A stretch of 42,291 bases of DNA, taken from Candidatus Thioglobus sp. Lineage in GTDB: Bacteria; Pseudomonadota; Gammaproteobacteria; PS1; Pseudothioglobaceae. The position numbers and the translations under genes were made by a program. The DNA lies in assembly GCA_029936515.1 (NCBI GenBank), contig JAPYSK010000008.1, positions 1-42,291 of the forward strand. The letters run 5' to 3'. Shown piece by piece: positions 1 to 18,475 of the stretch (within the stretch, counting starts at the first letter, position 1; every line of letters starts with the position of its first letter). A model generated the notes under the pieces. It was given only the letters and a program-made list of their open reading frames with translations. It ran no database searches and was not told the DNA's origin.

Positions 1-1906
1 CCATAAATAAACGCTGCCTATAGGTCGCACCGAATGCGTCTGCTGCCTCCATAGCCTCCTTGTCAACTAAACGAATACCCAAATTTGTTAAACGAACAAT
101 AGGTGGCATTGCATAAATACAAACCGCAATCAAGCCAGGAACCTTGCCTATACCTAACAACATAACAACGGGTATTAGATAGACAAAAGAAGGAATCGTT
201 TGCATGATGTCAAGCACCGGTGTAATCGTTGACTGAGCTCTGTCAGAGCGTGACATCCATATTCCAAGGGGTATCCCAATCGTTAGACATAGCAGAGTGG
301 CAGTAGCTATCATAGTGACAGTAGAGATCATAGGAGCCCACATGTCAAGGAATCCAATAGAAAAGAAGCCTAGTATTACTCCCACTGTAACCTTAACACT
401 TCTGGAACCAACCCAAGCTAGTGCGCCCGCTCCTAATAAAAAAACAGGCCAAGGCGTGGCAAGTAATAGTTGTTCAAATTGAGCTAAAAAGAATAATAAT
501 GGATCAAATATTTTTTCAATAATATCCCCAAACTCTCTCGTAAAGTCTCTAAAGGCTGAGTCAACACAGATACGTGAATTCATCATCACATCACGAGGTA
601 TTGATATAGCGTTATTGACAAACAAAGAAAAGTCAGATACGTTAATTGCGTCAATTACCTGAGTCGATAAAGTCGCAAAATAATCTCCTTGAGTAACGGG
701 GTCAACTGATTGAGTAGACTCAAATTGAGTTTCAATATTTTGAGACAATTTACTGATAGTTGCTGACAAAGTTTCTGGGTCAGTAGAACGAATGGACTGA
801 TATGTTCTATCAAGCCTTTGCACTACTTTATCAAGATTTTTGATTACATTAACCTTTATTTCTGCATAATTACCAACCTCATACTGAGCCGCTAAATCGA
901 TTACTTTTGCACTTAGCTCATTTGTTTTATTAACTAGTGGCATTAATACGTTTTCAACTGAACTAACATCGGTCCTTATAGAAGCTTCTTTGACCGCTTT
1001 AGAGAGAGCTTCAGAATCATTCAATAAAGGTATTAAGTTTGATACAATCTCGTTACTATCAAACATATCTTGTACTTTTGCATGGGTTGAGATACTCAAC
1101 TCATCCAAACTGAAAATCATGTCTTTAGAACCAGAAAAACTCTTATACGTTGAAGCTAAAGAATTTACCTGATCCCTTGTTTGAGAAATTTGCTCAATAT
1201 GGGACTGAACTTCGATATTCGAATTGAGAGAGTCGACCTGACCTATAAGTCCTCGAATTTTCTCGTTTATGAAACCTACCTCTGAAGCGATATCACTCAT
1301 AAACGATGGGGCATAAGTGTCTGCTTTATCAGAGTATTGTTGCGCCAACAATTCAACTTTATTAACAAGTTCACTGGCATTATCGTTACTAATTAGATAG
1401 CGTGAGTTTTCCTCTATATCCTTTAGAATGGGTTCTATATCCTTAAATATAGAAATAACTTGATTGGGTGAATTTATCGAATCAACCCTGCTTGAGAGTT
1501 CTGCAATAGAATTGTTATAAACCTCATATTGAGTAGTTGCGTTAGAGTTAAACTGAGTTCCAAGTTCCTGAGTTTTATTTGCTAGGGCTTGAGACAATAA
1601 TTGAACTTTTTCAAACAGTTCTGCAGCACTATTTACCTCAGTTAGAGGATTTGTTTCATTTGAAAAATCCTTTAAAGTTTGAGCTTTGACACTAGCTCGA
1701 TCTGCAAGTTTGGTATAGTTATCAGTGATTTTGACTAGCTGAGTATAATCTGTCGCACTTAGAGCTTGTGACGTTAAGTCATCTGCCCTTTTAGTCATTG
1801 CTTGAATGAAATTTAGGTCTTTATTGGCAATTCTTAAGTCGCCAATTTCAACTGCAGTTGGAAGGCAATCTAATATACTTTGTTTAGGTATCGGTCTAAC
1901 TGCCAT
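1..1906 (-). CDS. proW: Glycine betaine/proline-type ABC permease with a giant N-terminal extension (partial)
   Basis: My reading of the minus strand gives an open frame of 635 codons from ATG at 1906 that leaves the window at base 1; the C-terminus is missing. Residues from about 483 onward are a ProW/OpuAB permease: hydrophobic segments, then the family-typical stretches LGIW at 547-550, DIMQTIPSFVYLIPV at 566-580, and the EAA-type loop EAADAFGA at 620-627 that contacts the ATPase. It imports a quaternary amine such as glycine betaine across the inner membrane. Residues 1 to about 470 have no membrane segment or signal peptide. They are polar, rich in S, N, Q and predicted helix, and contain a tandem repeat. 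E. coli ProW has an N-tail of only about 100 residues. A GGAG Shine-Dalgarno lies 7 nt before the ATG. The binding-protein gene is directly upstream; an ATPase gene presumably follows beyond the edge. Confidence 0.88.
   Translation of the reverse strand, partial: MAVRPIPKQSILDCLPTAVEIGDLRIANKDLNFIQAMTKRADDLTSQALSATDYTQLVKITDNYTKLADRASVKAQTLKDFSNETNPLTEVNSAAELFEKVQLLSQALANKTQELGTQFNSNATTQYEVYNNSIAELSSRVDSINSPNQVISIFKDIEPILKDIEENSRYLISNDNASELVNKVELLAQQYSDKADTYAPSFMSDIASEVGFINEKIRGLIGQVDSLNSNIEVQSHIEQISQTRDQVNSLASTYKSFSGSKDMIFSLDELSISTHAKVQDMFDSNEIVSNLIPLLNDSEALSKAVKEASIRTDVSSVENVLMPLVNKTNELSAKVIDLAAQYEVGNYAEIKVNVIKNLDKVVQRLDRTYQSIRSTDPETLSATISKLSQNIETQFESTQSVDPVTQGDYFATLSTQVIDAINVSDFSLFVNNAISIPRDVMMNSRICVDSAFRDFTREFGDIIEKIFDPLLFFLAQFEQLLLATPWPVFLLGAGALAWVGSRSVKVTVGVILGFFSIGFLDMWAPMISTVTMIATATLLCLTIGIPLGIWMSRSDRAQSTITPVLDIMQTIPSFVYLIPVVMLLGIGKVPGLIAVCIYAMPPIVRLTNLGIRLVDKEAMEAADAFGATYRQRLFM
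1208..1633 (-). repeat. Tandem protein repeat inside the permease N-terminal extension
   Basis: Residues 92-150 and 175-233 of the permease align without gaps at about 20 identities in 59 positions, counted by eye. Both copies begin with an A-x-E-L-x-x-K-V-x-L-L-x-Q pattern and end with V-D-S-x-N-S-x-x-x-V. The period is 83 residues. A weaker third copy may start near residue 315 (NELSAKVIDLAAQY resembles SELVNKVELLAQQY). The pattern suggests a helical module that was duplicated. Its function is unknown to me. Confidence 0.6.
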
Positions 1907-1922
1907 GTGTCACTCCAATAAA

Positions 1923-1955
1923 AATTGCCCGTAAATATAAAATCTACGGGCAATT
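1923..1955 (-). terminator. Intercistronic hairpin between binding protein and permease genes
   Basis: An 11-bp perfect inverted repeat (arms 1923-1933 and 1945-1955, core ATTGCCCGTA, loop 11 nt) sits in the 78-nt gap between the two importer genes. Read on the minus strand it is followed by a short T-run. It could be a partial terminator or a 3' end-stabilising stem. Either would give more binding protein than permease, as is common in ABC import operons. Confidence 0.6.
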
Positions 1956-1984: not shown

Positions 1985-2992
1985 TTATAAAGCAGCTTCA
2001 ACAGAGGCAGCTATGTCAGCGTCAACCCATGCCTTCCATACATCTGCATGATTCGAAAGAAAATGAGTAGCAGCGTCAGATCCAGTACCACCAGTTTCAC
2101 CCATCCAAACAAGCATAGAGTTCATGATAGTACCAGGCCATATACGTGCTGCAAAGTAGTCCATACCTTCTGTTGGTCCGTTATAGAAAAAATTGTCACT
2201 CACCAAAGTGTTGACACGTGACTCAGTCCATCCAGAAATCTGAGGGTCAGAACAACCATCCCAACCAAGAGCAATGCAACTATCCCAGTTATCATTACCG
2301 GCAAATGGCCCTAAGTCAAGAGACCTGAGGTCATATTTACCAACCAATGCAGTTGGATTCCAGTAGTAACCAAACCAGTTTTCACCTTGCTCAGAGGCTT
2401 TCGCAATAGAGCCATCAAGACCAGCTGCTGTACCAGGATCACCTAGTACCCATCCTTTGTCAGCCATTCCATGGGCTCTGAAAAGACTTTGGCTTGCTAA
2501 TTGACAACCCCAACCAGCAGGACAACCCATAAAGAAACCCTTAGAAGGGTCTTCTTTGGAAGGGAATAAATCAGGTCGAGCTATAACATCTTCGACTGTA
2601 ACTAGTTCTGGGTATGCGTCCTGCGTGTAAGGTGTAATCCACCAACCCTCACCTAGACCACTCATTGGCGCAGCATTACCAATATGTATTCTGCCTGCTC
2701 CAACCGCACTATCAACAAGTGTAGCCATCGCATTAGCCCAGATTTCAGCAGCAACATCTGGCTCTCCTGTAGCATCCATTGAAGCCCATGTAGTCATTGT
2801 AGCACCAACTACAAGCTCAACATCACAGCCCATTGCTTCTAACATCGCTTTATCAACATGAGCCATCAAAGATGCTGAAGGCCAGTTCATGTCTGCCATG
2901 GTGATTTTGCCACAGGCAGCATTAGCAGCTGTGCTTAATAAAAATGCTGAAGCAACAGCGCCAAACACTTTCATAGAAAATTTAATATTCAT
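1985..2992 (-). CDS. proX: Glycine betaine-type ABC transporter substrate-binding protein
   Basis: The 335-residue protein has a Sec signal peptide (KVFGAVASAFLLSTAANA, likely cut after residue 25) and the layout of the OpuAC/ProX family of periplasmic quaternary-amine binding proteins. It is rich in tryptophan (for example NWPSAS, EIWANAM, GEGWWITPY, WFGYYWNP), as expected for a pocket that holds a cationic trimethylammonium group in an aromatic cage. Four cysteines at CPAGWGC and in the D-S-C-I / G-C-S-D segment could form disulfides. AGGAG lies upstream of the ATG. It is the first gene of a transport operon with the permease at 1-1906. The exact ligand (glycine betaine, proline betaine, choline or DMSP-like) cannot be told from sequence; the name proX is by family. 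Confidence 0.85.
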   Translation of the reverse strand: MNIKFSMKVFGAVASAFLLSTAANAACGKITMADMNWPSASLMAHVDKAMLEAMGCDVELVVGATMTTWASMDATGEPDVAAEIWANAMATLVDSAVGAGRIHIGNAAPMSGLGEGWWITPYTQDAYPELVTVEDVIARPDLFPSKEDPSKGFFMGCPAGWGCQLASQSLFRAHGMADKGWVLGDPGTAAGLDGSIAKASEQGENWFGYYWNPTALVGKYDLRSLDLGPFAGNDNWDSCIALGWDGCSDPQISGWTESRVNTLVSDNFFYNGPTEGMDYFAARIWPGTIMNSMLVWMGETGGTGSDAATHFLSNHADVWKAWVDADIAASVEAAL

Positions 2993-16074: not shown

Positions 16075-17448
16075 TTATAGCTCTTTATTTTTCTCTGGAA
16101 GAATACCGCCTGGAGAGAATCTCATTATTAAGAGCAATATAGTGCCCATAAAGACAAGTCTAAGATAGTGAACTCGATCTTCTATGAACTCTAATGATGT
16201 ATTTCCTTCTTGAATAAAGTTACCAAGCATTTCAACCACCCAAAGCCCCATTGGACCCGATTGAATCCAAATAAACCAGATAATAAAGGCACCTAAAACG
16301 GACCCTAAATTATTACCCGAACCACCAAGAATAACCATTACCCATATCAAAAAAGTAAATCGAAGGGGTTGATAAGCAGTAGGAATAAATATTCCATCAT
16401 AGGTAACCAATAAAGCACCAGCAACACCAACAATTGCAGAACCTAAGACAAAAATTTGTAGATGTTGACGCTTAATATTCTTACCCATCGCCGAGGCTGC
16501 AACTTCATTATCTCTTATTGCTCTTACTTTCCTTCCCCAAGGAGAATTTAAAGCAAGATTAGAAAGCAGTATGAAAGCAACTAAAATTAAAAGAATTAAA
16601 CCTGAATAACTAAGCTTAACAAAAACGACTGATGCCGCTCTAACATAGTCACCTAGCTTATCAATTTGATCTGATTGAGACAACAACTGAAGTTCTGATC
16701 TGTGAATCCAAGCAACAATATTTTGTAACCATTCAGATTTTTGCATGTCAACTTCATAAGGCACTGGCCTAGGAAGTCCATAAACATTTTTAAGGCCACG
16801 TACTAACCAGTCTTCATTTTTAATAACATAAAGAATAATTTCAGAAATACCCAGCGTTGCGATTGCAAGATAATCCGTCCTTAAACCTAAAGTTATCTTA
16901 CCAATCCACCAAGCTGCTCCAGCAGCAGCTATTCCTCCTACTATCCATGAGAAGGCTATAGGAAGTCCAAAGCCACCTAAGTAACCTGTAATTGCAGGAT
17001 CTACTTTTTCAATTAAATCTGCAGCTTCAGAGAAATAATATCTTGTAAATAGGTAACCAATAACTACAATTGCTGATACTAACCATTTATTAACGCCTCT
17101 TCTATTTAGTAATACTCCTGCAGTAATAGTTGCGGCACCCAAGATCAAGGCGAAAAGCATCTTCATGCCACCAGCATCTATCGCTTCAGTAACAGGCTGT
17201 TGAGCTATCAAAACTACGCTGACACCTCCTAAGGCAGCAAATCCCATAATTCCAACATTAAAGAGGCCTGCATACCCCCATTGGATATTTACACCTAGAG
17301 CCATAATAGCTGAAATCAAAGATAAGTTAATAATACCAAGTGCTAAAGCCCATGATTGATTTAGGCCTACAAATAAAAGTATGAGCCCCATTATAGTAAA
17401 GCAAGCAATCGCTTTATTAGCTTGCCAAAAAGTATTTAAATTATTCAT
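16075..17448 (-). CDS. livM: Liv-type ABC permease, LivM
   Basis: The 457-residue inner-membrane permease of the branched-chain amino acid family has many hydrophobic helices, the WGYAGLFNVGIMGFAALGG block, and the EAA-type loop GRKVRAIRDNEVAASAMGKN near residue 310 that docks the ATPases. It is longer than the E. coli protein because of a middle insertion with extra helices and a polar stretch around residues 225-265. I choose ATG 17448 (AAGGTG upstream) over the TTG at 17451. It overlaps livH by 8 nt, which suggests translational coupling, and pairs with LivH to form the channel. Confidence 0.9.
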   Translation of the reverse strand: MNNLNTFWQANKAIACFTIMGLILLFVGLNQSWALALGIINLSLISAIMALGVNIQWGYAGLFNVGIMGFAALGGVSVVLIAQQPVTEAIDAGGMKMLFALILGAATITAGVLLNRRGVNKWLVSAIVVIGYLFTRYYFSEAADLIEKVDPAITGYLGGFGLPIAFSWIVGGIAAAGAAWWIGKITLGLRTDYLAIATLGISEIILYVIKNEDWLVRGLKNVYGLPRPVPYEVDMQKSEWLQNIVAWIHRSELQLLSQSDQIDKLGDYVRAASVVFVKLSYSGLILLILVAFILLSNLALNSPWGRKVRAIRDNEVAASAMGKNIKRQHLQIFVLGSAIVGVAGALLVTYDGIFIPTAYQPLRFTFLIWVMVILGGSGNNLGSVLGAFIIWFIWIQSGPMGLWVVEMLGNFIQEGNTSLEFIEDRVHYLRLVFMGTILLLIMRFSPGGILPEKNKEL

Positions 17449-18475
17449 CAACTATCACCTTACCCTTAAACAATCCTGTAGGTTTTATTAGAAGAACAAT
17501 AACCAAAATTACAAAGGATATTGCGTATTTATACTCTGTGCCAATAAGTTGAACCAAAGAGGTAGGATGCATTGATAGTGGTAACAAGTATATTAAAAAC
17601 TTCTTATAGGCATAAGTAAGAAATATCTCAGAAAATGCGACTAAAAAAGCACCTGCAATTGCGCCAATGGGTGAGCCAATACCACCTACGATAACCGAGG
17701 CAAAAATTGGTAATAGTAATAAATGATATTGTTGCGGTGCAAAACCTTTATCAAGACCATAGAGTGTTCCAGCAATCGTTGTAAAAAGAGCGACCAGTAA
17801 CCAGGTTATTTGAACTACTTTATCTGGGTCAATACCAGAGAGAAGAGCTAATTCTTTATTGTCTGAATAAGCGCGCATAGCTTTTCCAGTTTTAGTTTTT
17901 TGTAGAAAGTAAAATAGAAAAGAAACTAATAATAAAGCAATAGTAACTGTTAAAAATTGAGATGTTTTTAGCGCAATACCCTGCTCAAGACCAGTATAAG
18001 CCTTGAATTCTCTGACAGAAAAAATAAATCTCTCCCCGTCTCCAAACCTTTGAGCAGAAGCACCTAATATAAACCTAACAATACCTCCTGTAACAAACAT
18101 AACGCCTATTGATGCTGAAATACCTACTATTGATTTAGCCTTTATTCTGCGATAATGCCTGTAAACCAATCTATCCATTGTGAGTAAATAAATTGACATA
18201 CCTATTAAGGCCATTGGAATTGCTAAAAGAGCAGTTGGTACTCCAGTTATAGTCCACCCTCTACTAATCATATAGCTACTAATTAATATAACAAGCATTG
18301 TTCCAAAAGCCATACTATCGCCCTGAGCAAAATTGGAAAACCTCAAAATTGAATAAACTAGAGTCACTGCCAAAGCGCCAAGCGCCAATTGTGAGCCATA
18401 AGATAATGCTGGAAGAATTACAAAATTAGTTAGTAAAGCAAATGCATTAATAATATCAATTGATTCTGACGTCAT
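17441..18475 (-). CDS. livH: Liv-type ABC permease, LivH
   Basis: The 344-residue inner-membrane protein has about eight or nine helices, the SNFAQGDSMAFGTM segment, the EAA-type loop GKAMRAYSDNKELALLSGID, and VGGIGSPIGAIAGAF near the end, all typical of LivH. It is the partner of LivM. Its start codon directly follows the livF stop and its end overlaps livM by 8 nt. Confidence 0.92.
   Translation of the reverse strand: MTSESIDIINAFALLTNFVILPALSYGSQLALGALAVTLVYSILRFSNFAQGDSMAFGTMLVILISSYMISRGWTITGVPTALLAIPMALIGMSIYLLTMDRLVYRHYRRIKAKSIVGISASIGVMFVTGGIVRFILGASAQRFGDGERFIFSVREFKAYTGLEQGIALKTSQFLTVTIALLLVSFLFYFLQKTKTGKAMRAYSDNKELALLSGIDPDKVVQITWLLVALFTTIAGTLYGLDKGFAPQQYHLLLLPIFASVIVGGIGSPIGAIAGAFLVAFSEIFLTYAYKKFLIYLLPLSMHPTSLVQLIGTEYKYAISFVILVIVLLIKPTGLFKGKVIVDE

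Follow-up and report, generated by a model that had tools for sequence, protein, structure and literature searches.

A permease of an ABC importer encoded in the window (the whole 42,291-nucleotide stretch of DNA analyzed here) carries an N-terminal helical domain of 436 residues. The domain is conserved, specific to one lineage, and without a match to any family, and this is what is new; the kind of transporter that carries it is already known. The best overall explanation, which we hold to have about an even chance of being right, is that the permease of a DmpXWV-like importer gained this domain once and that the domain stands in the periplasm as a rod. DMSP is an abundant sulfur compound of the sea, made by algae. 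Whichever side of the membrane the extension occupies, it would be a hitherto unrecognized accessory domain on an apparent DMSP uptake system of widespread marine bacteria.

The permease gene is a single minus-strand frame, open from the ATG at 1906 to the edge of the window and coding for 635 amino acids. The window starts where contig C3 of a 1.44-Mb assembly starts, at its base 1, so the permease lacks its C-terminus here; a search of the remaining assembly did not recover the lost 3' part. Other assemblies have full-length orthologues, mostly of 721–723 amino acids in one frame. The named genomes among the hits are Candidatus Thioglobus and Ca. Pseudothioglobus, and the source organism is a member of the SUP05/Arctic96BD-19 group. 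The protein is a type I ABC importer permease by its match to BPD_transp_1 (PF00528), which covers residues 544–712 of the full-length orthologue L024 with 91.4 bits against a curated cut-off of 26.4; the truncated protein of the window scores 57.7 bits. The cytoplasmic EAA loop of the core, EAADAFGATYRQRLF, is nearly invariant. In one MAG (L031, L008), the C-terminus (3' end) of the permease is unlike that of all relatives, which is probably a frameshift error. The hairpin that precedes the gene (Table 1) is probably attenuating, and its effect may be a lower level of permease than of binding protein.

Table 1. Features of the extended permease gene and its surroundings, in window coordinates.
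Feature	Position	Strand	Remarks
Extended DmpW-type permease	2..1906	-	635 of ~721 codons; C-terminus lost at contig end
Permease core	2..598	-	residues 437-635 present here; common to short orthologues; contains EAA loop
Lineage-specific N-terminal extension	599..1906	-	residues 1-436; all-helical, acidic, no TM segment, no signal peptide
Tandem repeat unit, copy 1	1391..1630	-	residues 93-172; HMM-HMM match to copy 2
Tandem repeat unit, copy 2	1142..1381	-	residues 176-255; HMM-HMM match to copy 1
C14 codon	1865..1867	-	invariant 24/24; sole Cys of extension
C447 codon	566..568	-	invariant 24/24; matching segment of close short orthologues without Cys
Shine-Dalgarno-like GGAG	1913..1916	-	precedes long start
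Terminator-like hairpin	1923..1955	-	between binding-protein and permease genes; 14 pairs, 5 G-C, T tract
DmpX-like substrate-binding protein	1985..2992	-	OpuAC match; 7yle (RnDmpX)

The original prediction, made from the letters of the window, was of some 480 polar, helix-like residues joined to a betaine-type permease. The polar, helical domain was borne out, but the length had to be shortened to about 436 residues, since residues ~437–482 form an amphipathic lead-in that ordinary orthologues of ~295 amino acids have as well. When the full-length protein is compared with short orthologues by phmmer, the alignment begins only at residue ~430–443; for example, the start of the short orthologue L049, MDWLDEFPSLSRKSLRELNKVIDTAYRNFSRSYGEQIEDFFDPLLQFL, pairs with DVMMNSRICVDSAFRDFTREFGDIIEKIFDPLLFFL of the extended permease. 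The extension is therefore residues 1–436, and the amphipathic segment 437–482 is ancestral. AlphaFold places helices over most of residues 30–420 with a pLDDT of ~85–97, while confidence is poor at the N-terminal residues 1–29, at ~83–92, and at the junction (~425–449). Modeled by themselves, residues 1–460 give a pTM of 0.66.

Part of the domain is repetitive. An HMM-HMM comparison pairs the two repeat copies with a probability of 97% over 80 columns, at 28% identity, and its score of 56 compares with at most 16 in 60 column-shuffled comparisons. This indicates that the extension was built in part by tandem duplication of a unit of ~83 residues. More than two copies were considered and rejected, as significance is limited to this one pair. 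The extension and the junction have C14 and C447 as their only cysteines, and these arrived with the domain. A lipoprotein at C14 was rejected because the preceding residues (ILD, IIE, or IFE) are unfit as a lipobox and a hydrophobic segment is absent.

Searches of Pfam, NCBIfam, PHROGs, PADLOC, and the PDB gave no credible match to residues 1–436. Sequence and profile searches against Pfam, PHROGs, PADLOC, and the PDB returned low-scoring and inconsistent matches of the coiled-coil type and nothing else, so the thought that the domain might be a known, common module was dropped. Structure searches with the extension likewise found a generic resemblance to helical bundles and no known family. 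The extension can be compared with rods of the spectrin type, which are also long helical bundles (VIA-align to 3edv: Z 11.1, rmsd 20.5, 262 residues). However, their repeat is ~106 residues rather than ~83, a sequence match is absent, and the 3edv match is tied with unrelated ones, with an rmsd above 20 Å and a Z typical of common helical arrangements. Two other origins were tried and rejected. For a phage origin, the viral contigs hold no relative, and the structural matches to tail, tape-measure, and SMC-like proteins are generic and lie above an E of 0.001; for helical pore-forming toxins, Foldseek gives an E of ~0.01 and a TM below 0.22, again from generic long helices.

The transporter itself can be placed more closely. 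The original prediction had called the permease ProW/OpuAB-like, and its betaine-type family stands, but a DmpXWV-like importer fits better than ProU. The extended permease scores 258.7 bits with the ProW equivalog NF008196 (curated cut-off 439) and 253.1 bits with the choline ChoW equivalog TIGR03416 (cut-off 363), so both cut-offs are missed. The gene order is dmpX-dmpW-dmpV in L024, L028, and L040, where the start of the ATPase gene overlaps the permease stop. At an E of 1e-10 or below, the one PDB match of the binding protein in the window is 7yle, RnDmpX, and seven of the eight pocket residues of DmpX (W35, T64, W84, E113, W152, A153, Y200, W202) are identical, A153 being replaced by G. 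DmpXWV has been described as the DMSP ABC transporter of Ruegeria pomeroyi (SPO2441-2443; RnDmpX structure 7yle), and Candidatus Thioglobus has been reported to have DmpX (PMC10030565). A pocket of this type is widespread among related binding proteins and is no proof of DMSP; the substrate is therefore likely, but not certain, to be DMSP and may instead be a similar solute. The importer thus shares with DmpXWV the X-W-V gene order and the binding-protein pocket, and its permease core is 58–72% identical to that of close short orthologues, the closest permeases outside the group. Unlike it, these have ~295–320 amino acids and no extension. As a side observation, the binding proteins beside extended permeases have few Lys and Arg (14–21 of ~336 residues) and those beside short orthologues mostly 19–46, which may be a matter of lineage composition or of co-adaptation with the arm.

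The survey of relatives found the same architecture in two genera of one family. Of 83 genomes of the order searched with a profile of the extension, 24 were positive. The genus of the window (the Ca. Pseudothioglobus group) accounts for 22 of these, out of 29 searched, and another genus of the family, with both of its genomes, for the other two. Two nearly complete genomes of the window's genus are among those without the extension; in one (G001) the close core orthologue is absent too, and in the other (G026) the core is interrupted by a contig end. Among 398 genomes of the phylum, the same search matched the window's own genome and none of the other 397. Core searches of 274 genomes of the class, of the 398, and of 289 genomes of the class around G476, presumably the Alphaproteobacteria, yielded no further extended close orthologue among the frames that were opened; the long ones in this subset were binding-protein fusions or other architectures. 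In the core tree, the extended proteins (L039 among them, whose match is split by a deletion) form one clade with 100/100 support, nested among short orthologues and adjoining L116, whose family (f214) we take to be Rhodobacteraceae. The closest outside permeases begin near residue 430–443, so a DmpW-type permease of a DMSP/betaine-type importer probably acquired the extension in a single event. The simplest history puts this one gain on the stem of the extended clade, in the common ancestor of two genera within SUP05/Arctic96BD-19, perhaps after a transfer of the transporter.

On which side of the membrane the domain lies is the main question of topology. It had been expected in the periplasm if the layout of ProW were kept, and we still lean toward that side, because the core retains the seven-helix layout with its N-terminus outside. 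The loops of the core obey the positive-inside rule if the N-terminus is outside, with the positive charges cytoplasmic. E. coli ProW, of the same superfamily, has a hydrophilic N-tail of ~100 residues that is reportedly periplasmic (title of Whitley 1994, cited in PMC6110835), while the tail here is four times longer, folded, and repeat-containing. Within the same permease family, the permeases L168, L169, and L171 are preceded by an OpuAC binding domain; such an arrangement is sensible only if the N-terminus is outside, so it supports a periplasmic location. The invariant C14 and C447 occur in genomes that have both DsbA and DsbB. The three fusions are 613–664 amino acids long and reverse the C-terminal fusion in OpuA. 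Transporters of the OpuA type (7ahc) and these fusions resemble the permease of the window in carrying a large extra domain, in the fusions at the same N-terminus. However, the extra domain there is the OpuAC binding protein, and L169 has a signal-peptide-like start, whereas the domain here is helical, without a family match and without a signal peptide.

This last feature counts against a periplasmic extension. Residues 1–436 have no signal peptide, hydrophobic stretch, or transmembrane segment. According to one review, long tails with an outside N-terminus require a signal peptide (PMC13261788), and according to another, insertases handle only short tails (PMC7616256). The content of Lys and Arg in the extension (8.5%) lies between that of the cytosolic proteins of the window and that of its binding protein, near cytosolic values. 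These points favor a domain that stays in the cytoplasm, the first hydrophobic segments being placed differently in the membrane, and that would act there in regulation or oligomerization. This is a serious possibility but the lesser one, since the core, with the stretch that leads up to TM1, has 58–72% identity to short orthologues whose N-terminus is outside by charge, the family includes N-terminal binding-protein fusions, and the cysteine pair is invariant. If the domain is cytoplasmic, a conserved permease family has altered the placement of its N-terminus. If it is periplasmic, it is a natural N-tail about four times the classic tail of ProW that runs against the signal-peptide rule, and the extended permease would lend itself at once to testing that rule. 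In that case, a folded N-tail of ~436 residues would cross the inner membrane without a signal peptide or a preceding hydrophobic segment and then be closed by a disulfide into a periplasmic rod, a course of events that we consider possible but slightly less likely than its opposite.

A disulfide between C14 and C447 could staple the N-terminus to the membrane-proximal base, a possibility that we put somewhat short of an even chance. With such a staple, the rod would go out and return, and, as the transporter is dimeric, two rods would stand on it. Some structural alignments (rmsd 2–3.5 Å) pair early with late helices (24..430 and 123..399), which is consistent, though only indirectly, with a rod of this out-and-back kind. 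For a folded outer arm on an importer, holding or guiding the binding protein would seem the role that needs the fewest assumptions. By analogy with other transporters, in which a permease-fused binding protein has such an effect, the extension might serve as a collar or antenna that keeps DmpX near the pore, but this is a tentative and rather doubtful assignment. The extension and DmpX are both strongly acidic, so simple docking is not favored. If the arm is periplasmic, contact with the envelope is the main alternative: the rod would touch the cell wall or outer membrane as an anchor, spacer, or osmotic sensor instead of the binding protein. An elongated helical bundle with internal repeats suits this, as do the compatible solutes that are the usual cargo of this transporter family. 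However, the family searches found no wall-binding motif or family, and the extension evolves faster than the core; we regard this role as unlikely.

The extension begins at a start of its own. In nearly all of the 24 sequences, a Shine-Dalgarno of the GGAG type lies upstream of the long start; at the invariant M441/M442, no conserved ribosome-binding site was found in the same sequences, and the positions needed for one vary. The extension of the window permease is 31–89% identical to the others compared, and when the window is compared with four close relatives, dN/dS is 0.31–0.36 in the extension (0.31–0.40 between close relatives) and 0.04–0.10 in the core. The extension is under purifying selection and has its own conserved start. 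A gene fusion, an assembly error, or a true start near residue 440 (for which the invariant M441/M442 and the GGTGA-like letters just 5' of it in some sequences might speak) is refuted in practice and extremely improbable, as more than 20 assemblies, single-contig genomes among them, have the same ORF, the long start, unlike M441/M442, has kept its Shine-Dalgarno, and the dN/dS of the extension is 0.31–0.40. In L024 and L025, synonymous divergence from window 2-1906 is lower in the extension (0.11–0.17) than in the core (0.33–0.79), and recombination within the core could be the source.

Other long permeases were seen as well. A second permease of the same genome, with 509 amino acids (L111:1486-3015, genome contig C48; also L106), has a different N-terminal extension, made up of a DUF2628-like membrane segment, a coiled-coil-like stretch, and more hydrophobic segments ahead of the permease core. 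Judging from long frames in other genomes, this type seems to be more widespread. At 16075-17451, the window also encodes a LivM-like branched-chain permease of 458 amino acids, whose Pfam match runs from residue 37 to 442 against a profile of 268 positions; the span exceeds the profile, so there is seemingly an insertion of more than 100 residues.
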